Shown in pieces: positions 2,562 through 23,093 of a DNA stretch of 56,774 nucleotides. The stretch is from NCBI GenBank assembly GCA_022447625.1, contig JAKVAX010000022.1, forward strand, positions 1 through 56,774, in the 5' to 3' direction. This DNA comes from Flavobacteriales bacterium. GTDB taxonomy: Bacteria > Bacteroidota > Bacteroidia > Flavobacteriales_D > Sanyastnellaceae. The notes under the pieces are model-generated. The model made no database searches. It worked only from the letters and a program-made list of their open reading frames with translations, and was not told the origin of the DNA. A program made the translations under genes and the position numbers. Position 1 is the first letter of the stretch, and every line of letters starts with the position of its first letter.

Positions 2562-2640
2562 TTAACTCAAGCCAACCGATGATATATCTCCCTGATCTCC
2601 AAGGTCTTTTCAGTATATTGAAAACATCATAACACCTGCA

Positions 2641-5600
2641 ATGAAACAACTACTACTTTCACTTCTTTTGAGCATTCCTTTTTGGTTAGCTGCACAGTGT
2701 GACTTTACAGAGATCACCGTCCTAACTGAAACTGAAAATTACGGCCCAGAACAGGGATGGCAAATCATCGATGCCAATGGGAATTTATACTACACTTTTC
2801 AAGCAGATGCTGATTTTACATCTTATGAAGACATCATTTGCCTAGAAGATGGTTGTTACATTTTTGAATCTATCGATACTTATGGCGATGGATGGAATGG
2901 TGGAACGGTTTCTGTGAATGTTGATGGCGTTATCTACGATTATGTTTTGACAGACGGAACAGGAGATCTTTCTCCGTTTGGAGTCAATGAAACCGGATGC
3001 ACTTTGGCTGGAAGCTGTATGCTCAATCAAGTTTATATTCAGACGAGTACCCAAGCATATGGAGCGGAGGTTGGATGGCAGATTATGGATAATGAAGGCA
3101 ACGTGTACTACTCATTCGCCGCAACTGCAGACAATTCGACATACAATGATTTCGTATGCATCGAAGATGGTTGCTACGTATTCATTGCTACTGACACCTA
3201 CGGCGATGGGTGGAATGGTGGTTCAGTGATCATTGACGTCAGCGGAGCCTTGACGAATTATCAAATGGACGACGGAACGCAAGAGGCAATAGCGATTGGG
3301 GTAAATGCTGAGGGATGCGAAGTCATCATTCCTGGATGTACGAATCCAGACGCCTTGAACTATGACGAAGCCGCAACGGAAGATGATGGATCGTGCTTGA
3401 CGATTCAAGATTACCTGGATATTCAGAATATTACACCACTGATTGCCTCGGGCCCTGTCCATAACCGAGTCAACTGGGGTATTCAAAACAGAAGTTCGGG
3501 GAATCCAAATGCTGATTTTATCGATGAGGATGACTTTGTATCGATGTTACAGGATTCGCTTATCCCATGTTTCACCATTGGTGATCCCCTCGAGAAAGAA
3601 CCTTATGCCCGCTATCGGAACTTCTTCAATATTGACGCTTGGTGGTGGGAAGATGCCCCTGCGGAAGGTGAAGGATGGAGCTGGGATATTTTGAAAGGGC
3701 TACGTGATGAATATTACTTGCCTTGGCAAGACGATGAACACGGTTGGGCCACCTTATTTTCAAATACAAAGTTTGGAGGAGGTGGAGGAGCTGGTGTCCA
3801 GCCTGAAACCAGGACGGGAGATGGGTTCATGTTCGGACTTGGCTGGGAGACGCTGCTTCATGAATTTGGACATACCATGCCTCAAGTTCCTGACGAATAT
3901 ACCTCAAGTGGTGTTTGGTCTGGAGGAGAATGCTGGGAAGGAGCGAATACAACTGGCTGGTCTATTCGAGATAGTATTCCATGGAGAAACTGGATTGCAG
4001 AAGATACACCTCTTCCTACGCCTTACGAAGAAGAATACATGGAAACCATCGGAGCTTTTGAAGGGGCCCTAACCAACTATTTTGGATGTCATCGACCTTC
4101 TGCTCGTGGCTGCTACATGGGAGCAGGAGGCTTTGGTCCTGAATTCGGACAAGACATGTGTATTCCTTGTCGACAGCGTGTAGTTTGTCTACTATACAGG
4201 TACGTAGATGTTATTGAAAACCCCATGCCGGCCAATCAAAATGTGGCGGTTAATGGGGATGAGACGATCACTTTCTCCGCCGATATTGTAAAACCAGAGC
4301 CTAATACCCAGACCTATACTTGGTTGCTCAATGGCAATATCATTGGTGAAGGTAGCGAGACCATTGATGTGACTTTTGGAAGTTGTGATGTCTACGAATT
4401 GACTCTTGTTGTTGAAGACACAACAGACTGGGTTCGATTTGATGCACACTTCAGTGATCTGTATCCAAAACCGATGGAAACCCATACATGGTTTATTGAT
4501 CAGACGGCAATAGAGAGTTATGATTTATCGGTTGAAACCGAATCAGTTGCAGTGAATTGTACAGCTGGTCCTAACGGACAGCTTTCCCTCTTGCCATCGG
4601 GAGGAGAAGCCCCTTACACTGCATATTGGGAAGGTCAGGACGTAGGCCTGTTACATGCGGAGCTTGTTGCAGGTGAATACACGCATTGGCTCGTAGATGG
4701 CAATGGATGCGGGGTTTCCGTTACTTCTGAAGTGACACAAGATCCGTTCTTGGGGATTTCTGTTTGTGCAGAATACACGGAATTTTGGTCGGTTGATTTG
4801 ACGGTCGAGGGCTATGATCCAAACCTTTGTACCATTTTGTGGTCAAATGATGCGGACGGATTAAATTCTGGCCCTATATCTTCTGGATTACAATGGGTTA
4901 GCGTGACTACACCCGGAGGTTGTTCACGCACATTGGAGTTTGAGGTAGACAATGAGCCTTCTCCAATGTCTGTCAGCGCTCAATATTTTGCATCAGAGGC
5001 AGACACTCCCACGGGTTCCATTTACTTAAATGTAACTGGGGGTCAACCTGAGTTTACCGTGCGTTGGTATGACAAAGAGGCACGAGACTTAACGGAAGGA
5101 ATTCAAGAAAACGCTGTCGCAAGTGGATTCGATTTCGGCCATTTACCGGAGGAGGCATTCGACGATAATCAATTCTCTAAATGGCTTCAGATAGGAACCA
5201 GTGATGTCTGGATTGGTATTGAATTCGAACAGCCGGAACAGATTCAGTACTACACAATCATGTCTGGAGATGATGTGGAAGAGAGAGATCCAACAGCATG
5301 GGAACTGCAAGGTTCGAACGATGGCTCCGATTGGACGGTAATCGATACACGTTCAGGAGAGGATTTTCCGGAACGTCGCCAAGTGCGTGGTTTTGGATTT
5401 GACAACCCGAATGAATATAGCTTCTACCGGTTGTATGTTACAGCAAACGCAGGCGCTAACGAGGTGCAATTGCAAGAGATCCAATTGATAGGAACTACAG
5501 CCGATGATGAATTCGTCTATAATCCAAACGCTGATGATATGCTCACGCGCTTGGAGCTCGCAGCGGGTGAGTACCAATACCTTGTTCAAGATCTCAATTC

Positions 5601-7021: not shown

Positions 7022-8404
7022 ATGAAGAACGTCCTCCTATTTTTTTGGTCGATAATACCTATGCTGTCATTTGCACAATTGACCATCGTTGTTGACGAAA
7101 TTCCATCGAACACGCCAGAAGGCAGTGACATTCATATTGCCGGTGATTTCCAGGGTTGGGACCCAGGTTCATCTGATTACATGCTGAATGACAATGGAGA
7201 CGGCACCTATTCAATTGAGCTTGATATTGCGGCAGGAACCATCACTTTCAAATTCACTCGAGGTGGTTGGGACACCGTGGAAGGAAACGAAAACGGAGGT
7301 TTTCTCCCGGATAGAACTTACTCGTACAACGGCCTTGAAGAGACGCTGAATCTTCAAATTCTCAGTTGGGAAGATGTAGGTGGTACTAACTCCTCGGCGG
7401 CAGAGAATGTAGAGATCATGGATACGGATTTCTACATCTCACAGCTTGATCGTTACCGTCGCATTTGGGTATACACGCCTCCGAACTATGATGATACCGA
7501 CGAGCATTACAAAGTGCTCTACATGCATGATGGACAAAACCTTTTCGACGCAGCCAGCAGTTTTTCAGGGGAATGGGAAGTAGATGAAACACTCAATGCA
7601 TTGTTTGACCAAGGCGATGAAGGATGCATCGTGGTAGGGATCGATAACGGAGGTATCCATCGCATCGATGAATATTCGCCTTGGGTAAACGTTCAATACG
7701 GCGGCGGAGAAGGACGCCTTTACATGGATTTTATCGTCAACACACTCAAGCCATACATTGATGAGAACTACCGTACTCGTCCAGAACGCGAATGGACAGG
7801 CATCATGGGAAGCTCAATGGGCGGTTTAATTTCAGCCTATGGGGGGGTAGAACACAGTGATGTGTTCAGTCGAATCGGTGCTTTTTCACCCAGCTATTGG
7901 TTCAGTGATGAGACGTATGATCATATGCAAGTAAACGTGGTTACAGCAGAGATGCGTATTTATACCATTGCCGGCGAACAAGAAGGCCCCGTCATGACCA
8001 ACGGCGTCGCCAACATGAATAACATCATGAGCAACACCGGCTGGTACGATGAGAATGAGTTCATCACCCTCACTCACGAATACGGCACCCACAGCGAATC
8101 CTACTGGCGCAATGAATTCGAAGACGCCTATTTGTGGTTATGGGATAATGATACTTCAGTTAATGATTTCGCTAGCGCGGAATGGGTCGTCTACCCAAAC
8201 CCAAGCGAAACAGTTATTCAACTGGAAATTGAAAACAGCTCCCAGGTAACCAAAATCGAACTTATCGATTCCACCGGGAAACTTATATACACTACTTCTC
8301 AATTCGAGCGCATGATCGATGTATCTCAATGGGAAGGTGTACATGTTATAGCGATCTACCTCGAAGGAGGAGAGAAGCTCACGAAACGCATCGTCCTCAG
8401 GTGA
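7022..8404 (+). CDS. Secreted alpha/beta-hydrolase esterase with carbohydrate-binding-like N-domain and T9SS tail
   Basis: This 460-aa protein has a signal peptide (MKNVLLFFWSIIPMLSFAQ). An early-set/starch-binding-like domain follows (about residues 20-110, HIAGDFQGWDPGS). Next is a putative-esterase (esterase D/Fes-like) alpha/beta-hydrolase domain, about 130-365, with the nucleophile elbow GSSMGG (S265). The C-terminus is a T9SS sorting domain starting near YPNPSETVIQLEI. It probably cleaves ester bonds in polysaccharide-linked or siderophore-like substrates outside the cell. It follows the M64-like gene by 4 nt. No T-tract terminator was seen; a heptamer repeat array occupies its 3' flank. 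Confidence 0.85.
   Translation: MKNVLLFFWSIIPMLSFAQLTIVVDEIPSNTPEGSDIHIAGDFQGWDPGSSDYMLNDNGDGTYSIELDIAAGTITFKFTRGGWDTVEGNENGGFLPDRTYSYNGLEETLNLQILSWEDVGGTNSSAAENVEIMDTDFYISQLDRYRRIWVYTPPNYDDTDEHYKVLYMHDGQNLFDAASSFSGEWEVDETLNALFDQGDEGCIVVGIDNGGIHRIDEYSPWVNVQYGGGEGRLYMDFIVNTLKPYIDENYRTRPEREWTGIMGSSMGGLISAYGGVEHSDVFSRIGAFSPSYWFSDETYDHMQVNVVTAEMRIYTIAGEQEGPVMTNGVANMNNIMSNTGWYDENEFITLTHEYGTHSESYWRNEFEDAYLWLWDNDTSVNDFASAEWVVYPNPSETVIQLEIENSSQVTKIELIDSTGKLIYTTSQFERMIDVSQWEGVHVIAIYLEGGEKLTKRIVLR
8170..8182 (+). repeat. Iterated 13-mer CGCTAGCGCGGAA (exact copy)
   Basis: It lies inside the esterase gene, in frame as ...FASAEW. One of five exact copies in the window; see findings. Confidence 0.7.
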
Positions 8405-8584
8405 GTCGAGAGTCTAGAGACGAGCGTCTAGGGATTTTTAATCTATAATCCATAAACCATAATCTATAACTGTTGAAGCTACGTCGTCGATTGAAATGAC
8501 AACCAAAGACCAAGAACCAAAAGCAATAATCTATAACGGTTACGGGTGTACCAATCAGTCCACCGTCCACGGTCCACGGTCCAC
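8405..8584. repeat. Heptamer repeat array R1 (reverse orientation)
   Basis: The array is built of degenerate 7-bp words: AGTCTAG/AGACGAG/CGTCTAG, then TCTATAA/TCCATAA/ACCATAA/TCTATAA, and finally blocks of CCGTCCA/CGGTCCA. The words are the reverse complements of those in arrays R2, R3 and R5. It sits between the 3' ends of two convergent genes. Confidence 0.75.
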
Positions 8585-8593
8585 TAAAAGCGC

Positions 8594-8953
8594 CTATGGC
8601 CTCACGTATCCGTCAAGAATCTCCTCCAAATTCGGTTTCGGAACCACCCCAGCATAGCGCTCAACGAGTTGTCCTTTATCGAAAATGAGGAGGGAAGGGA
8701 TGCTACGGATCTGGAATACTTGAGAGAGTCTTGGTGATACTTCGGTATTGACTTTTCCGATAATCACTTTCCCTTCATACTCTGCAGAAAGTTCATCGAT
8801 GATAGGTCCCATCACACGACATGGTGCACACCAAGAAGCCCAAAAGTCAATGAGTACCGCGTGATCATTCTGCGCTACAATTTCTTTGAAATTGGCTTCT
8901 GTGATCTCCATGGCCTTGGGCTTTGGAGCTCTATTCTTCTTTTTCCAAAACAT
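8594..8953 (-). CDS. Thioredoxin-family protein
   Basis: With the ATG at 8953 the protein has 119 aa: a short basic N-terminal stretch, then a thioredoxin fold with the active site WCAPC (C42, C45) and the cis-Pro loop IRSIPSLL. It reduces disulfides in the cytosol and has no signal peptide or membrane segment. An upstream ATG would add 10 residues, but a perfect TACCTTTG promoter box (8961-8968) lies within that extension, so I chose MFWKKKN; the message would be almost leaderless. The next in-frame ATG (MEITEANF, 8911) is the other reasonable start. It is flanked on both sides by heptamer repeat arrays. Confidence 0.88.
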   Translation of the reverse strand: MFWKKKNRAPKPKAMEITEANFKEIVAQNDHAVLIDFWASWCAPCRVMGPIIDELSAEYEGKVIIGKVNTEVSPRLSQVFQIRSIPSLLIFDKGQLVERYAGVVPKPNLEEILDGYVRP

Positions 8954-8960
8954 AACAGTA

Positions 8961-8968
8961 CAAAGGTA
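8961..8968 (-). promoter_or_regulatory. TAnnTTTG promoter box of the thioredoxin gene
   Basis: Minus-strand TACCTTTG ends 7 nt before the chosen ATG at 8953, implying a leader of only a few nucleotides. Confidence 0.55.
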
Positions 8969-9019
8969 GGGCAGGGGTGTCATAGATTTGTGCCACTTCA
9001 GTCACAGAAAGGCTTTTAC

Positions 9020-9120
9020 TGTGGACCGTGGACCGTAGACCGTAGACCGTAGACCGTGGACAGCAGACGGTTGGTTATCAGTTATAGTTTATCGTTTATA
9101 GACCCTAGTCCCTAGTCTCA
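9020..9120. repeat. Heptamer repeat array R2
   Basis: Tandem 7-mers GTGGACC, GTAGACC (three times) and GTGGACA are followed by GTTATCA/GTTATAG/TTTATCG/TTTATAG and then CCTAGTC repeats. The first ~80 bp are almost identical to R3. It sits 3' of the WYL-PhyH gene. Confidence 0.8.
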
Positions 9121-9132
9121 TGCCTCCAAGAG

Positions 9133-10860
9133 TCATGTGTTCCACTCAAATGATTCAGCCCACGAAAGTTCTTCGGGTAGTTCAGCTGAAGTAAACTCTA
9201 AATGAATCACTCTTCGTTGTTTTTTGGAATTAGATGAGCCTGACGCGTGAAGAAGTAATGGGTGCATGACATGCACGGCACCGGCATTCACTTCAATAGA
9301 TGAAGGAATAGCGTTGTCGACGATTGTCTTGATTTGGTTATCGTCATGGATGCGTTTGTGGCTGCCCGTAAGAATCATCAAAGCTCCGTTCTGTTTGTGG
9401 CAATCGTCTAGATGAATGCGTAACGTAAATACTTTTTGCATGAACGACTCCGGAGGCATGACACTGTAGTATCCATCTTTTTTAAGCCACCCGGAAAAAC
9501 CCTCAACTTCATGTTTTTCTTGAACGTTAATCGTTCGGTCTTGGTGCCAATTAACTTTCCAGTTGCTCTCTTTATTTTTATCGAAGTAGATGGACTTTAT
9601 AAGTCGAGCGTTTTTATCAATGCGAGTGATGATAGACTTTAAGTTCGGAAGGAATAAGTGAGAACTCAGTTGAGGAATTTCACCTAGGACATTCCGGATG
9701 GCATATGGGTCTGTCTTTTTTGATTCTAAATAACCTCTGATTTCTCGCTTCATTGCTTTTATAGAGCGATGTCTCATGGCATGGTCAATAACCCCCGAGC
9801 CTCTATATGTTAGTTTTGATTTCAGTACTGTTAGCCCTCTTTCACTCAGCTCCGTATTGTAAACGTCTATAGCTTCAGAGAGCCGCTGTCTAATTGAACG
9901 TTTAAGTCTTTCGGGAGCCAAAACTTGAACATTCTCTCCAAAAGAAAGCAAGTCTCGTTCAAGCTCATAGTTCCACTGAACTGTGAGGGAGACTACAGTA
10001 CCTCGTTCATCCCGGCCCAAAAATTTTTGAGAGGAATGGAGGGGTTTAGTCAGAACATACGGCGAGGTATTTCGATTGAATCGAAGGATAACTTCCTGAG
10101 GTTCTTCATTAACATTAACTGTTACACCGATCACATGCTGGAAGTGGCGCTCAGGATCAAAATTCTCATTTGGTAAGAAGGCCTTGCTACTTCTATTAAT
10201 TTCTCTAATTCTATCTAAGGCTAGATTCAGTAACTGGTCGGACTTTTGATTTCTTCCAATCACGAACCATCGGTTGCGGTGCTCTTTTAATAGATAAGGG
10301 TGGAATGTGATGGTTGAAGGTTGGCGTGCCTTGAAAGATTGATAGGTTATTTCCAATGGGTACGACTGCTGAATTGCTTTGTAGATCCGCGAGAGGTATC
10401 CGATTCCAACCAAATCATCATTACGTTCAATGCTTATAACTTCTGCGGTTCGAGTCTTTTTGGCGTATACATGGTCTTCGAGTTTCTGAACCATTGCGCC
10501 TAACTCTTTAAAATGATCAAAATTCTGGAATTGCTGCAGAAAACCTATGGTTTCACTCAAACGCTCCAAGTCGGCTTCAGAAACAGGACTATTAGTAATA
10601 CTGTATTCAGAATCGTCGTACATGTAGTACTTCCGGTCAACAACAATAATTGGTGCGTTGTAACCCAGTTTGTCACTACGCATAAGCTGAATATCGGCTT
10701 GAACAGTTCGTCTACTCACTCCTTTGTCTATGCCTTCATATTCATAAAGTGCATCTGAACAAGCTTCCATGAGATCTTCTAAGGTCCACTTCCTGAACCG
10801 ATTAGATAGGCAAAGGTCGATAGTTCGATACCGAATAAGGGCGTTACGATTCGCTGGCAT
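9133..10860 (-). CDS. WYL-domain transcription regulator fused to a PhyH-like Fe(II)/2-oxoglutarate dioxygenase
   Basis: One unbroken 575-aa frame holds two unlike halves. Residues ~5-70 resemble a DeoR-type helix-turn-helix. Residues ~150-235 form a WYL domain (ITYQSF, HPYLL, RWFVIGR, LALDRI), and a WCX-like C-terminal extension runs to about 340. Residues ~350-575 resemble phytanoyl-CoA dioxygenase: the iron ligands would be H439 and D441 (WHQD) and H538 (LLLHASG), and the 2-oxoglutarate arginine R549 or R550 (RRVIHLEF). WYL proteins usually bind DNA and sense a ligand or nucleic acid. Here an oxygenase replaces or supplements the sensor. The gene is divergent from the ncRNA-slipin-rtcB unit across a gene-free interval, so it is the likely regulator of that unit. 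The dioxygenase substrate is unknown. Confidence 0.85.
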   Translation of the reverse strand: MPANRNALIRYRTIDLCLSNRFRKWTLEDLMEACSDALYEYEGIDKGVSRRTVQADIQLMRSDKLGYNAPIIVVDRKYYMYDDSEYSITNSPVSEADLERLSETIGFLQQFQNFDHFKELGAMVQKLEDHVYAKKTRTAEVISIERNDDLVGIGYLSRIYKAIQQSYPLEITYQSFKARQPSTITFHPYLLKEHRNRWFVIGRNQKSDQLLNLALDRIREINRSSKAFLPNENFDPERHFQHVIGVTVNVNEEPQEVILRFNRNTSPYVLTKPLHSSQKFLGRDERGTVVSLTVQWNYELERDLLSFGENVQVLAPERLKRSIRQRLSEAIDVYNTELSERGLTVLKSKLTYRGSGVIDHAMRHRSIKAMKREIRGYLESKKTDPYAIRNVLGEIPQLSSHLFLPNLKSIITRIDKNARLIKSIYFDKNKESNWKVNWHQDRTINVQEKHEVEGFSGWLKKDGYYSVMPPESFMQKVFTLRIHLDDCHKQNGALMILTGSHKRIHDDNQIKTIVDNAIPSSIEVNAGAVHVMHPLLLHASGSSNSKKQRRVIHLEFTSAELPEELSWAESFEWNT

Positions 10861-10946
10861 GACAAAAAAAAATCAAACTTTTTTCTAAGTACGCAAAAAG
10901 ACTGCGCACTTCCATAAAACCTTTGCTTTGTCAAAGAAAGAAACCC

Positions 10947-10984
10947 GCCCCGCTGCCGGTAAGAAGAAGTTTTGGCAGCGGGGC
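10947..10984 (+). other. Strong 11-bp RNA hairpin at the 5' end of the ncRNA region
   Basis: GCCCCGCTGCC (10947-10957) pairs perfectly with GGCAGCGGGGC (10974-10984) around a 16-nt purine-rich loop. No T-tract follows on either strand, so it is not a terminator. It may cap the 5' end of the ncRNA or form an operator-like cruciform in the divergent promoter region. Confidence 0.6.
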
Positions 10985-11179
10985 TCCGTAAGGGTAAAAG
11001 TACTGGAATTGACAACACGTTCTGCGAAATACTGCCTTTTGGCACTTAAAATATGCACCGTTGGTGCAAAGACGCTTGACTTCGAGGAGTTCAACCTTGC
11101 GCTCGCGATTCTGTATATCGCGGCAGTGTATGATGGAATGCATTTATACATGCTAGAAAGAATGACTCGAGTTAGGCTT

Positions 11180-11247
11180 GAACATGGGTCGAAGGTTCGA
11201 ATCCTTCCCGAGTTTTCTCGGTAACTCAGTTGGTTAGAGTAATGTTC
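11180..11247 (+). ncRNA. Circularly permuted tRNA-like element with acceptor sealed by a UUUU loop
   Basis: In order: AACAT (11181-11185, anticodon stem 39-43), GGGTC (44-48), T-arm GAAGG-TTCGAAT-CCTTC (11191-11207), acceptor CCGAG (11208-11212), TTTT, acceptor CTCGG (11217-11221), U8 A9, D-arm ACTC-AGTTGGTTA-GAGT (11224-11240), A26, ATGTT (11242-11246, anticodon stem 27-31). All four tRNA helices pair perfectly, with a 5-bp acceptor, and G180-C247 extends the anticodon stem. The conserved bases U8, A14, G15-C48, G18, G19, U54, U55, C56 and A58 are present. There is no CCA end and no closed anticodon loop, so it cannot work as a translating tRNA as it stands. The shape equals a tRNA cut in its anticodon loop. 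Confidence 0.75.
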
Positions 11248-11253
11248 CTTGGG

Positions 11254-11298
11254 ATTGCATTGGGTTCGATTCCCATCTAACTGAAAATTAGAAGCAAT
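11254..11298 (+). ncRNA. Second tRNA-like three-helix module with canonical T-arm, no D-arm
   Basis: The closing stem ATTGC (11254-11258) / GCAAT (11294-11298) encloses a T-arm TGGG-TTCGATT-CCCA (11261-11275). Next comes an acceptor-like stem TCTAA (11276-11280) / TTAGA (11288-11292) capped by CTGAAAA. The topology matches the permuted element just upstream, minus the D-arm. A competing fold pairs CTAACTGA (11277-11284) with TCAGTTGG in the preceding D-loop, so the two modules could switch between structures. Confidence 0.5.
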
Positions 11299-11335
11299 GG
11301 GTCCGTTGGACAACCGTGAGCTACCACTCACAATT

Positions 11336-11361
11336 GGTGACTTCCATATCACCCTTTTTTT
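11336..11361 (+). terminator. Intrinsic terminator ending the tRNA-like ncRNA
   Basis: GGTGA (11336-11340) / TCACC (11349-11353), followed by C and seven T. It lies about 250 nt upstream of slipin, so it separates the ncRNA from the protein genes or partly attenuates them. Confidence 0.75.
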
Positions 11362-11611
11362 AAGGAAGAGTGCTATCGATACTGATCCCGCCGACTTGAT
11401 CGGCAATTCAGAAGCTCCCGAGTGCATGGTATCAATTGTGACCGGGGTGCGAGACGTGATCACAACTCCTTCAAAAATAAGGATCGAGTTCTGATTACCG
11501 ACCGCGACCTTCGGAACAGCCTGCGAAACATGTACTCCGCAGCAGAAGAATGGAACAGATCGGTGGCCTCTTTTTAAACGAAATGAATTAGTAACAAATA
11601 AATATACCGTC
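11362..11611 (+). other. Structured region between the ncRNA terminator and slipin (second ncRNA or long leader)
   Basis: No ORF is apparent. Hairpins include GCCGA/TCGGC (11390-11404) nested in GATAC/GTATC, TTGTGA/TCACAA closing around 11436-11465, TCCTT-CAAAAAT-AAGGA, and CTGCG/CGCAG (11521-11541). The 8-bp palindromes TATCGATA (11374) and GTGATCAC (11456-11463) could be operator half-sites. A T-tract at 11571-11575 follows a long-range ACCGA/TCGGT pairing and might end a second short RNA. The remaining ~35 nt before slipin are A-rich, as in typical Bacteroidota leaders. Confidence 0.4.
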
Positions 11612-12709
11612 ATGAAACGGGTAAAGATTTACGCTGGCTACGTCGGCATGGTATTTAGGGATGGAGAATTAGTTCGTGTGCTTCCGAAGGGAAGCCACTG
11701 GATTAAGATGAACGAGTTGTGCAAACGCCGTTCGTTGCGAGATGCCATCACGCCACATGAATTTGATCTTGATCTGTTAATGCAAAACAAAGACTTTGCG
11801 ATGCAAGTCGATGCCTACCAGATCATGGATGATGAGCTCGGTCTAGAGTTCGAGAACGGCATTCTGCACTGCATACATGAGGCTGGAAGAATCGCCTTCT
11901 GGAAGAGCGATTTGGATAGAGAAGTAATCATTTATTCTCGCGATGAGGTGACGATTCCTTCCGATATGAAATTCGCTGTCGTGAATCACCGACTGATGTC
12001 AAATTACATCCGGAAAATGACGGTGCCACACTTTCATAAAGGACTGCTTTACATCGATGGTAAATTTATTGAGGTGTTGCCTCCTGGAGCATATGCTTTT
12101 TGGAAAACGGCTACTTCGGTAATGGTCGAGACGGTGCCGGTGAGGACGCAAAGCTTTGAAGTTCAAGGTCAAGAGATGTTGACGAAAGACAAAGCCGCGC
12201 TTCGAATCAATTTCACTGTGAACTTCACCGTAACGGACGTCATGAAGGCAGTGTTGGATGCGTCGAATTATCGGAATGAATTCTATGGAAAAGCACAAAT
12301 GGCACTTCGAGGAGTCATTAGTGCGCTCACCTTAGATGACTTACTCGAGCAAAAGAATGAAGTGAGCGCTGAGATTGCCAAAAACCTGAGTGCTGAAGCG
12401 AAAGCCATGGGGTTGAGCCTTGATTCATGTGGTATCAAAGACATTATTCTCCCAGGAGAAATGAAAGAGATTATGAATCAAGTGTTGGTTGCTCAGAAAC
12501 GAGCACAGGCCAACAGCATTCTTCGAAGAGAGGAAAACGCCTCAACGCGAAACTTGCTGAATACAGCAAAATTGATGGAAGACAACGAGATGCTATTGAA
12601 GCTCAAGGAGATGGAGTACATCGAAAAAGTAGCGGACAAAGTGAATAGCATTTCGGTCTCGAATGGAAACCAGGTATTGGAACAATTGAGAACGCTATTT
12701 GGAAATTAA
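11612..12709 (+). CDS. Slipin (SPFH/band-7 family protein)
   Basis: This 365-aa SPFH protein lacks an obvious signal or hydrophobic anchor. The N-terminal part contains two similar short segments (residues ~4-26, AGYVGMVFRDGELVRVLPKG, and ~132-155, HFHKGLLYIDGKFIEVLPPG). The band-7 core is at about 155-300, and a helical C-terminal region includes the ALTLDDLLEQK and LEQLRTLFGN segments. SPFH proteins form membrane-bound oligomeric scaffolds. Slipin genes beside rtcB are known from many bacteria and are thought to belong to RNA-damage response operons, though the mechanism is unclear. It is followed by rtcB after 42 nt containing a strong hairpin, so the pair is probably one transcript. Confidence 0.88.
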   Translation: MKRVKIYAGYVGMVFRDGELVRVLPKGSHWIKMNELCKRRSLRDAITPHEFDLDLLMQNKDFAMQVDAYQIMDDELGLEFENGILHCIHEAGRIAFWKSDLDREVIIYSRDEVTIPSDMKFAVVNHRLMSNYIRKMTVPHFHKGLLYIDGKFIEVLPPGAYAFWKTATSVMVETVPVRTQSFEVQGQEMLTKDKAALRINFTVNFTVTDVMKAVLDASNYRNEFYGKAQMALRGVISALTLDDLLEQKNEVSAEIAKNLSAEAKAMGLSLDSCGIKDIILPGEMKEIMNQVLVAQKRAQANSILRREENASTRNLLNTAKLMEDNEMLLKLKEMEYIEKVADKVNSISVSNGNQVLEQLRTLFGN

Positions 12710-12713
12710 CTTA

Positions 12714-12735
12714 GCCCCGGGAATACGCCCGGGGC
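12714..12735 (+). promoter_or_regulatory. Intercistronic hairpin between slipin and rtcB
   Basis: GCCCCGGG (12714-12721) / CCCGGGGC (12728-12735) is a perfect 8-bp stem with a 6-nt loop and no T-tract. It is too GC-rich to be chance in this gap and is probably an RNA processing or stability element that sets the slipin:RtcB ratio. Confidence 0.6.
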
Positions 12736-12751
12736 CTCAAAGAAGAAGAAA

Positions 12752-14164
12752 ATGACCTTTACAGGTAAAGAAATATTGAACCTCGGTTTTGAGGAAGGAA
12801 AGGAAGTAGCATTGGCCATAGAAATCGCCAATACACTTCTGGATACACAAGACGAAGAAGTGGTCAACATAGCACTGAAAAGAGTGCTAGAGAAGCCAGA
12901 ATCTTTTATGGAAGATCGAAAATGGGCAGCTTTGGCAAATCAATTGATTGAAAAGAACAATGTTGACCCGGTGATTGAGCTAAATGAAACTCCAGTTGAT
13001 CTTGAAATTTTCGGGCAAGAACACATTGAACAAGGAGCACTTGATCAAATCCATGTTGCGTCAAAGTTACCTGTTGCGAAATCTGCCGCTTTAATGCCAG
13101 ATGCACATCAGGGATACGGTCTTCCCATCGGAGGTGTACTGGCAACTGATAACGCTATCATTCCCTACGCTGTAGGTGTGGATATCGGTTGCCGAATGTG
13201 CCTATCGATTTACGAAATCGACCCTGAGATCATTGAAGAGAAGGAAGCCATGCTATCTAAGATGTTGAACAGAAATACCGCTTTTGGCCGACAAACGGTG
13301 AAGAATCGAAAAGACCATGAAGTTTTACACAACGATCTCTTCTCAGAAATCCCTTTGATTAAAGGATTGAAGGAGAAGGCAGCGTCTCAAATTGGATCTT
13401 CCGGTGGTGGAAATCACTTCGTGGAATTTGGCATCGTTGAAATCAAAACCCTAAGCACAGAATTAGGCCTTGAACCAGGAAGCTACTTGGCACTACTTTC
13501 ACATTCTGGCTCAAGGGGGCTTGGGGCAACGATTGCTAATCATTACACCAAACTTGCAATGCAAGAAACTAAGCTTCCGGATGAGGCGAAGCACTTGGCT
13601 TGGCTCGACTTAAATACCGAGCTCGGACAAGAGTATTGGTTAGCGATGAATCTCGCTGGTGATTATGCTTCAGCATGCCACCACCAAATTCATGAGAGAA
13701 TGTCGATTGGTCTGAGAACTCGTCCGGCGGTAATGGTGGAAAATCACCACAACTTTGCATGGAAGGAGCTAGATCACGAGGGTAAGGAGGTTATAGTCCA
13801 CAGAAAAGGGGCGACTCCAGCCGGAGAAGGTGTCTTAGGAGTAATTCCTGGATCGATGACAGCACCTGGATATATTGTTCGAGGAAAAGGAGATCCAAGG
13901 TCTATCGCTTCAGCTTCTCACGGGGCTGGACGAACCATGTCAAGGACAAAAGCGAAGAATACTCTTGATCATGAAGAAGTGAACAAATTCCTTGCTGACA
14001 GAGGAGTCAAAGTCATTGGCTCAGGATTAGATGAAGCGCCTATGGCATATAAAGACATTGATGCAGTAATGGCGTGTCAACAAGACTTAGTCGATGTTCT
14101 GGGGAGCTTTCACCCAAAAATCGTGCGAATGTGTGGCGATAAAGGATTCTTCGAAGTCGACTAG
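12752..14164 (+). CDS. rtcB: RNA 2',3'-cyclic phosphate/3'-phosphate-5'-OH ligase RtcB
   Basis: A 470-aa RtcB of the usual bacterial length. It joins RNA 3'-phosphate or 2',3'-cyclic phosphate ends to 5'-OH ends, using GTP and Mn2+, as in tRNA splicing and in repair after ribotoxin cleavage. Family motifs are intact: MPDAHQGYGLPIGG, the metal ligands in GVDIGC (D144, C147), GGGNHFVEFG (H222), LLSHSGSRG, VENHHNF, and the guanylylated histidine in ASHGAGR (H390). The ~65-residue N-terminal extension is helical and resembles other Bacteroidota copies. No archease or RtcA gene is nearby. The slipin, ncRNA and WYL neighbours point to regulated RNA repair rather than constitutive tRNA splicing. A terminator follows at 14180-14204. 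Confidence 0.97.
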   Translation: MTFTGKEILNLGFEEGKEVALAIEIANTLLDTQDEEVVNIALKRVLEKPESFMEDRKWAALANQLIEKNNVDPVIELNETPVDLEIFGQEHIEQGALDQIHVASKLPVAKSAALMPDAHQGYGLPIGGVLATDNAIIPYAVGVDIGCRMCLSIYEIDPEIIEEKEAMLSKMLNRNTAFGRQTVKNRKDHEVLHNDLFSEIPLIKGLKEKAASQIGSSGGGNHFVEFGIVEIKTLSTELGLEPGSYLALLSHSGSRGLGATIANHYTKLAMQETKLPDEAKHLAWLDLNTELGQEYWLAMNLAGDYASACHHQIHERMSIGLRTRPAVMVENHHNFAWKELDHEGKEVIVHRKGATPAGEGVLGVIPGSMTAPGYIVRGKGDPRSIASASHGAGRTMSRTKAKNTLDHEEVNKFLADRGVKVIGSGLDEAPMAYKDIDAVMACQQDLVDVLGSFHPKIVRMCGDKGFFEVD

Positions 14165-23014: not shown

Positions 23015-23086
23015 GGCCTCGTAGTACAATGGATAGTACGTGGGTCTCCGGAACCCAAGATCCAGGTTCGATTCCCGGCGGGGCTA
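23015..23086 (+). tRNA. tRNA-Arg (anticodon CCG)
   Basis: Acceptor GGCCTCG / CGGGGCT (two G-U pairs), U8-A9, D-arm GTAC-AATGGATA-GTAC, anticodon arm TGGGT-CTCCGGA-ACCCA with anticodon CCG, T-arm CCAGG-TTCGATT-CCCGG (one A-C mismatch), discriminator A. CCA is not encoded. It reads CGG codons. A strong terminator follows directly. Confidence 0.93.
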
Positions 23087-23093
23087 CTTCCTC

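Follow-up and report, generated by a model that had tools for sequence, protein, structure and literature searches.

In the genome of a Flavobacteriales bacterium, a WYL-type transcription regulator runs on, in the same frame, into a PhyH-type oxygenase. What does such a protein control, and why should a switch of this kind carry an enzyme? We addressed these questions from the 56,774-nt stretch of DNA that holds the gene (the window) and from related loci across Bacteroidota. An earlier note on this DNA had described the fusion and judged its oxygenase probably active; it omitted the RNA-repair locus beside the gene, the operator and regulon, and the orthologous regulators that lack PhyH. Gene context is the best clue to the function of the WYL-PhyH fusion. 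Sequence indicates its domains, the intact active site, the conserved locus, the operator with its spacing and a structured leader. We consider it probable that the fusion is a dedicated DNA-binding regulator of a Bacteroidota RNA-repair regulon with an active accessory Fe(II)/2OG oxygenase, and we infer activation rather than repression, an RNA signal, catalysis and the substrate.

A WYL regulator and a PhyH oxygenase in one frame

The fusion gene is a single minus-strand ORF with an ATG start and no internal stop (Table 1), and Pfam places WYL, WCX and PhyH in its 575-aa product, all above curated cut-offs, as the earlier note had read it. The PhyH profile matches residues 359-551 (E = 1.7e-13; 51.8 bits against a cut-off of 22). 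Toward the N terminus, HTH_11 matches residues 47-79 under its cut-off (E = 0.048), and the structural model has helices at 2-19, 27-42 and 50-61 and strands at 71-74 and 78-81. Pfam found neither a CARF domain nor an AAA sigma-54 activator domain of the RtcR type above cut-off in the protein.

Table 1. Features of the WYL-PhyH locus, in window coordinates
Feature	Position	Strand	Basis
WYL-PhyH fusion gene, 575 aa	9133..10860	-	single ORF, Pfam, model
N-terminal helix-turn-helix region, residues 1-82 (approximate)	10615..10860	-	model helices, sub-threshold Pfam
WYL domain, residues 155-221	10198..10398	-	Pfam PF13280, E = 3.2e-14, above gathering score
WCX domain, residues 253-330	9871..10104	-	Pfam PF25583, E = 1.6e-11, above gathering score; DriD sequence match
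PhyH-type Fe/2OG oxygenase domain, residues 338-575 (N-terminal border approximate)	9136..9849	-	Pfam PF05721
PhyH iron ligand H439	9544-9546	-	
PhyH iron ligand D441	9538-9540	-	
PhyH iron ligand H538	9247-9249	-	
PhyH 2OG arginine R549	9214-9216	-	
Predicted operator TACGCA-N7-TGCGCA	10890..10908	.	29 bp before fusion start
TTTG of predicted -7 box, 13 nt after operator, operon side	10922..10925	+	
Leader RNA, tandem circularly permuted tRNA-like (YrlA-type) modules	11167..11300 (ends approximate)	+	Rfam, covariation
Slipin / SPFH Band_7 gene, 365 aa	11612..12709	+	Pfam PF01145, E = 1.4e-30
RtcB RNA ligase gene, 470 aa	12752..14164	+	Pfam PF01139, E = 6.6e-85

The iron triad and 2OG arginine that the earlier note had picked out are numbered correctly and intact: all 78 fused rows of the alignment have H439, D441, H538 and R549, as does every ungapped row among the 59 without an in-frame WYL. 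The 78 rows, like the 74 upstream regions analyzed below, hold a few repeats: the window is counted twice (WIN and L041), and three more genome pairs are duplicates by identity (L150 = G027, L148 = G207, L153 = G272). A vestigial oxygenase was ruled out, no fused row being without a catalytic residue. Many residues flanking the active site are common to standalone PhyH enzymes too. In the regulatory half, R197 and R217 of the WYL domain are invariant among 46 fusions (alignment A3).

We built an AlphaFold2 model of the fusion from those 46 aligned fusions (A3; 46 of the 78 fused rows). Its mean pLDDT is 84.3 and its pTM 0.64. Confidence is poor over residues 91-150 and above a pLDDT of 90 in most 10-residue blocks from 251 onward; the blocks with H439 and R549 have values of 77 and 79. 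The PhyH part (model residues from 330) superposes on 7e06 (Z 22.0, rmsd 3.3, 219 residues aligned), on SnoK 5epa (Z 21.9, rmsd 2.6 over 215) and on human PHYH 2a1x (Z 20.2, rmsd 3.0 over 205). From this superposition on PhyH-fold enzymes (Z 20-22), the C-terminal region is predicted to be a double-stranded beta-helix, which bears out the fold that the earlier note had presumed. The solved folds nearest to it are, judged by their titles, mostly small-molecule enzymes, which says little on substrate. For the whole model, the top Foldseek match is DriD with ssDNA and DNA (8tp8, E = 1.5e-12); because the rmsd over the whole chain is 17, the domain arrangement of the fusion differs from that of DriD.

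The fusion is conserved beyond its own genome. In a search of 60 relatives, the sole other full-length match, from another genus, has 47% identity (G027); together with the one-ORF WYL-PhyH genes at 64 of the best 80 PhyH-related loci, this homolog rules out a frame-merging artefact. Those loci (L100-L179) come from a pattern scan of genome contigs, and were picked by PhyH similarity with the best 80 kept; a fusion is present at 64 of them, and the other 16 have no WYL in frame. Fusions are sparse yet widely spread in Bacteroidota: by frame length and WYL content they occur in 12 of 399 order-sample and 2 of 395 phylum-sample genomes (G000 and G622), the window's own genome included, and the genera represented include Algibacter, Winogradskyella and Pontibacter. 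The PhyH part matches 3 of 114 family genomes, again including its own, and at E <= 0.001 it matches 32 of 399 order-sample and 59 of 395 phylum-sample genomes, many of these matches being standalone or weak. No relatives of the fusion were found among viral contigs (69 pattern matches). In a PhyH tree built by a quick method from 133 of 137 rows (all but the second window copy and three short rows), the PhyH domains of the fusions group in a single clade (SH-aLRT 99; 81 rows, 77 of them fused, plus L049, L102, L143 and L152), so a single fusion followed by losses is the simplest reading.

The divergent RNA-repair locus, its leader and its predicted operator

Upstream of the fusion gene in the window, and divergent from it, lie genes for a slipin and an RtcB RNA ligase, with the leader RNA in between. 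This company recurs. Among the best 80 loci, 57 of the 64 with a fusion have an RNA-repair gene or a tRNA on the divergent side (RtcB 42, slipin 28, tRNA 25, RlaP 12, TROVE 6, PrfH 6), in counts taken, like the others given here, without kinship correction and with neighbor genes named by Pfam from one representative per neighbor family. The remaining seven are L108, L112, L133, L146, L149, L159 and L163, of which L108 and L112 have a contig end close by that limits the view of their neighbors. Of the 16 loci without an in-frame WYL, two (L102 and L143) have a divergent repair gene or tRNA, and both belong to the fusion clade; the divergent side of the other 14 is without an RNA-repair gene. 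Neither RtcB nor slipin was matched beside WYL paralogs of 33-39% identity, in 1.5-kb flanks of L003-L030 and 12-19 kb of L036-L040, and no RNA-repair genes stand near the PhyH matches on two plasmids examined out of five matching records.

Several relatives carry tRNA arrays at the locus. The fullest, at a locus with an unfused WYL (L247, G190:C1:2045500-2060500, positions 8115-13455), has 24 tRNA genes standing among operator sites, slipin and RtcB; 23 of the 24 have an assigned isotype and all 20 amino acids are covered, so that the array is a nearly complete spare tRNA set. On the best reading of these gene sets, the regulon would cover RNA repair together with tRNA supply. The only tRNA gene that ARAGORN finds in the window, a tRNA-Arg (ccg) at 23015-23087, lies away from the repair locus.

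Three further protein families were noted at these and similar loci. A protein of about 750 aa (cluster cl175) recurs in L214 (8533-10776), L215, L253, L259, L261, L262 and L263, adjoining an operator site and a tRNA array in L214, L215, L259, L262 and L263; three members scanned gave sub-threshold Pfam hints of a RING finger, and one of them a hint of NFACT_N. The conserved families c7 (~200 aa, L145:4282-4887) and c16 (229 aa, L138:1393-2082) occur at fusion-type loci, and one representative of each was without a Pfam match.

The leader between fusion and slipin matches the Rfam family YrlA (RF02553) at 11167-11272 with E = 6.2e-8 and 42.3 bits, under the gathering score of 69. We sought tandem T-arm motifs at a distance of 55-90 nt in 30 fusion-slipin gaps and found them in 29, spaced 57-83 nt apart; the gap of L103 had none. 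Twenty-five of these 29 leaders were aligned, L111, L141, L148 and L151 having been omitted before the count for odd spacing or register. Covariation in the 25 supports a module that runs from closing stem through T-arm, capped acceptor hairpin and D-arm to the next T-arm. In the aligned leaders 92.6% of cells are paired, against 73.0% when shuffled, and 20 of 25 pairs show double changes. The covariation score of 0.627 falls to 0.246 on shuffling and does not exceed 0.187 when the partners are slid. Pairing is lowest, at 75.8%, in the closing stem, which we had added by eye. Read from these alignments, the modules have a circularly permuted tRNA order, as the Y RNA YrlA does (RF02553; PDB 6CU1), with T-arm, capped acceptor stem and D-arm in succession; the published account of the 6CU1 bacterial Y RNA, in the part available, describes its relation to tRNA as a circular permutation. 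The leader differs from YrlA in its tandem modules before slipin and in scoring below the Rfam cut-off.

Between the two divergent transcription units lies a 19-bp inverted repeat, TRCGCA-N7-TGCGYA, which we predict to be the operator. It was spotted by eye at a few loci and tested afterwards, mostly on the loci of its discovery; the reversed-pattern control, the unlinked sites, the unfused loci and the 13-nt spacing described below reduce this discovery bias but do not remove it. Of 74 fusion upstreams, 57 have it at spacing 7 with 10 or more of the 12 positions matching (16 score 10, 24 score 11 and 17 score 12); after a single mononucleotide shuffle, 2 of 74 do. Among the 17 upstreams that miss it, eight (L107, L122, L123, L132, L133, L135, L138 and L146) have another gene, c8, in between, and an exact site precedes c8. 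This gene (~767 aa; in pieces in L133) lies on the fusion's strand near 2620-4980 of those loci.

In the window's genome (G000) the exact pattern occurs once, at the predicted operator; because the reversed control also occurs once, it is the place of the site, not the count, that is significant. Across the 64 fused loci of L100-L179 there are 101 exact sites, with at least one in 59 loci; L102 and L143 have one each, and the reversed control is absent from all 80 loci (0.97 Mb). Twelve other fusion genomes hold 36 sites against 2 controls; in each of them a site lies no more than ~3 kb from the fusion, and 23 of the 36 are within 10 kb of it. G001 and G002, which have no fusion, hold one site each (controls 3 and 2), and G061 has none. 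Of 13 sites that are unlinked, lying far from the fusion or on a different contig of a draft genome, five adjoin RtcB, TROVE, slipin or a tRNA array: one before RtcB (L197), one before TROVE (L199), one before slipin (L205), and two flanking a 17-tRNA array plus a c16-RtcB-PrfH group (L202). The other eight have no recognised repair gene beside them (L198, L200, L201, L203, L204, L207, L208, L209; the L204 site is at a contig end).

The site keeps a rigid distance to a TTTG. At 40 of 41 repair-side sites, defined as those within 130 bp of RtcB, RlaP, TROVE, a tRNA gene or either of the linked families c7 and c16, TTTG follows after exactly 13 nt, and it does so on the operon side of 27 of 34 fusion-preceding sites (L102 included). 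The Bacteroidetes promoter consensus is TTG...TAnnTTTG. Set against it, the TTTG spacing centers the operator near -32 and leaves no -33 box, and because TA stands ahead of nnTTTG in no more than 4 of 40 cases, the -7 box is weak. Such a layout is as would be expected of an activator-dependent promoter, and we infer a likeness to PafBC, which is described as acting at promoters via a -26 motif, where it is interposed between DNA and the sigma domain for -35 recognition. A repressor that covers the repair promoters and leaves upon signal could also sit in this position, over the -33 region, and a WYL protein, Sll7009, is described as negatively regulating a CRISPR-Cas system. We nevertheless think repression unlikely, if possible: the spacer at the would-be -33 TTG box is A-rich, the -7 box weak and the 13-nt spacing rigid, as in activator-dependent promoters, and the nearest structural relatives, DriD and PafBC, are reported to activate. 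At the fusion's own promoter, a canonical -7 box (TAnnTTT) is present in just 8 of 34 rows, so autorepression looks weak. Activation of the repair promoters is the reading that we favor.

Regulators without the oxygenase, and the oxygenase without a regulator

Searching 399 order genomes with the WYL part recovered 18 unfused orthologs of 46-60% identity (L247-L264), and all 18 lie near RtcB or slipin, with an operator. Fifteen more distant WYL matches (34-40%) were found, and the two examined (L265 and L266) have neither the repair locus nor the operator. A need for PhyH in regulation is ruled out, in their lineages, by the 18 close orthologs, which keep locus and operator; because they occupy the same loci without it, the WYL part alone can serve, and the oxygenase appears to be an accessory rather than the core sensor. 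In a quick WYL tree of 98 rows, unfused rows are nested among fused ones, with four changes for the unfused label and five for the fused, at least three of each forced by starred branches; several rows of the tree are long-branched. The part that stays constant is thus WYL; PhyH appears to have dropped out repeatedly.

The converse arrangement was found once, in Chryseosolibacter histidini (L102:5953-6690), where there is no WYL and PhyH stands alone behind an operator, divergent from slipin-RtcB. Its ORF begins MTVNR, where the fusion has MPVNR, and then passes directly into PhyH. A standalone PhyH elsewhere in the genome is commoner where the WYL is unfused (6 of 18 genomes against 10 of 381; Fisher p = 2e-5; counted by hand in 399 genomes with 4 weak matches left out). 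We do not rely on this link: five of the six belong to one family (f9), one is a fragment (G372), and none of the six loci has an exact operator.

Could the oxygenase nonetheless be a sensor module, in which Fe(II), O2 or 2OG binding or turnover adjusts how the WYL part binds DNA or activates, so that RNA repair is gated by oxygen or metabolic state? PhyH shares one polypeptide with the regulator, its cofactor residues are invariant in all fused rows, and loss of PhyH with WYL kept would fit the loss of a tuning input. Against this, the residues that flank the site are common to standalone relatives without a DNA-binding part, which points to a retained substrate, and L102 keeps PhyH without WYL; we regard a sensor as a possible but rather improbable role. 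PhyH might also work on RNA, as a repair or modification enzyme that the fusion keeps where the response takes place and that, for example, removes a group from damaged tRNA or its ends or adds one. Such a role would suit both the gene company of RNA repair and tRNA supply and the lone PhyH kept at the slipin-RtcB locus of L102. This role we consider doubtful, since 14 of the 16 WYL-less loci in L100-L179 are without a divergent repair gene and the upstream genes examined are mixed; the nearest solved folds, mostly of small-molecule enzymes, add little. The neighbors of WYL-less PhyH genes were also tried as a guide to the substrate and rejected: at ten such loci (among them L152, inside the fusion clade) the upstream genes are mutually unrelated, encoding GNAT, YkuD, cyclophilin, arginase, MurB, RmuC, ECF sigma, CcmF-like, VWA and topoisomerase proteins.

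Because its residues are kept, because it is dispensable in some lineages and because it stands alone in L102, we read PhyH, with modest confidence, as a response enzyme rather than an essential sensor. The role of the whole protein as a regulator is argued from its position, the operator and the unfused orthologs; for the sequence-specific DNA binding expected of a class A (HTH-WYL-WCX) factor, the conserved operator speaks indirectly. In the mechanism that we propose, the HTH would bind TRCGCA-N7-TGCGYA at the expected -33 box position of repair promoters, and the WYL/WCX part would bind a nucleic-acid signal of RNA damage, with RNA fragments as a guess. Once bound, the protein would bring RNA polymerase to the operon of leader RNA, slipin and RtcB and, in relatives, also to RlaP, TROVE and tRNA genes; the same operator, 29 bp before the fusion's start codon, may control the fusion too, and the PhyH domain would be a working enzyme produced within the response. 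That RNA is the signal is a guess by analogy, made because the WYL parts of PafBC and DriD are reported to bind, and so to sense, ssDNA, because R197 and R217 are invariant and because tRNA fragments are reported to activate the Salmonella rtc operon. A fuller version, in which the WYL activator senses broken RNA directly, its same-chain oxygenase processes an RNA-damage product or the signal, and the operator commands both the repair of cut tRNAs and their replacement by spare ones, strikes us as speculative and quite unlikely to hold in every part.

Relation to known regulators and repair systems

Some of these gene combinations have been described. Among the papers listed in the literature searches, most subscription papers lying outside their scope, none was seen to deal with the WYL-PhyH regulator, its operator or its regulon. 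In the parts available, a survey of WYL architectures leaves out those with fewer than 100 sequences and an earlier WYL survey lists other enzyme fusions; the word "oxygenase" is absent from the main text of both. Control of RNA repair outside RtcR/sigma-54 seems little known, TrcR of Anabaena being the only other regulator met in the accounts available. In genera that are known by name, the analysis provides a family of candidate regulators together with a predicted 19-bp operator, the arrangement of the promoters and a list of predicted targets. If the proposal is true, nucleic-acid sensing by WYL proteins would extend from DNA damage to RNA damage, the cell's answer to RNA damage would be tied to an oxidation reaction, and an oxygenase within an RNA-damage response regulator would be a combination that we have not met. 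Why a switch of this kind should have gained an oxygenase and, by the quick tree, lost it several times afterwards is a further question that the fusion raises.

The slipin/SPFH, tRNA-like RNA and RtcB genes of the fusion loci, and their PrfH, have counterparts in described repair systems. Modules of SPFH proteins with tRNA-like RNA were reportedly named by Burroughs and Aravind in 2016. PrfH-RtcB with TPR and Pol-beta genes is described, in the part available, in Burroughs and Aravind 2019. The slipin/SPFH-tRNA-like RNA-RtcB and PrfH-RtcB-TPR systems share their gene set with the fusion loci; the operator and regulon described here were not met in the literature searched, the 2016 paper apart. 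In Anabaena, the trn operon is described as stress-induced with 26 tRNA genes, and rtcB and a slipin gene as rising in a trcR mutant. TrcR, however, is a repressor of a different family than WYL, and no oxygenase is mentioned in the available part of the Anabaena account.

RtcR-controlled rtcBA and rsr-yrlBA-rtcBA operons, as far as the accounts available describe them, resemble the fusion locus in having the regulator divergent from RtcB and, in some, Ro60/TROVE and a Y RNA. RtcR is a CARF protein and sigma-54 activator, whereas here the regulator is a WYL protein and the promoter has a TTTG box; the fusion loci further add slipin, RlaP and tRNA arrays. The regulator itself is closest to the HTH-WYL-WCX activators of the DNA-damage response, DriD and PafBC, whose domain order and fold are like residues 1-335 of the fusion; DriD is described as binding a 20-bp pseudo-palindromic site and activating. 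The fusion is unlike both in its added C-terminal oxygenase and in its predicted targets, which are those of RNA repair, not DNA repair.
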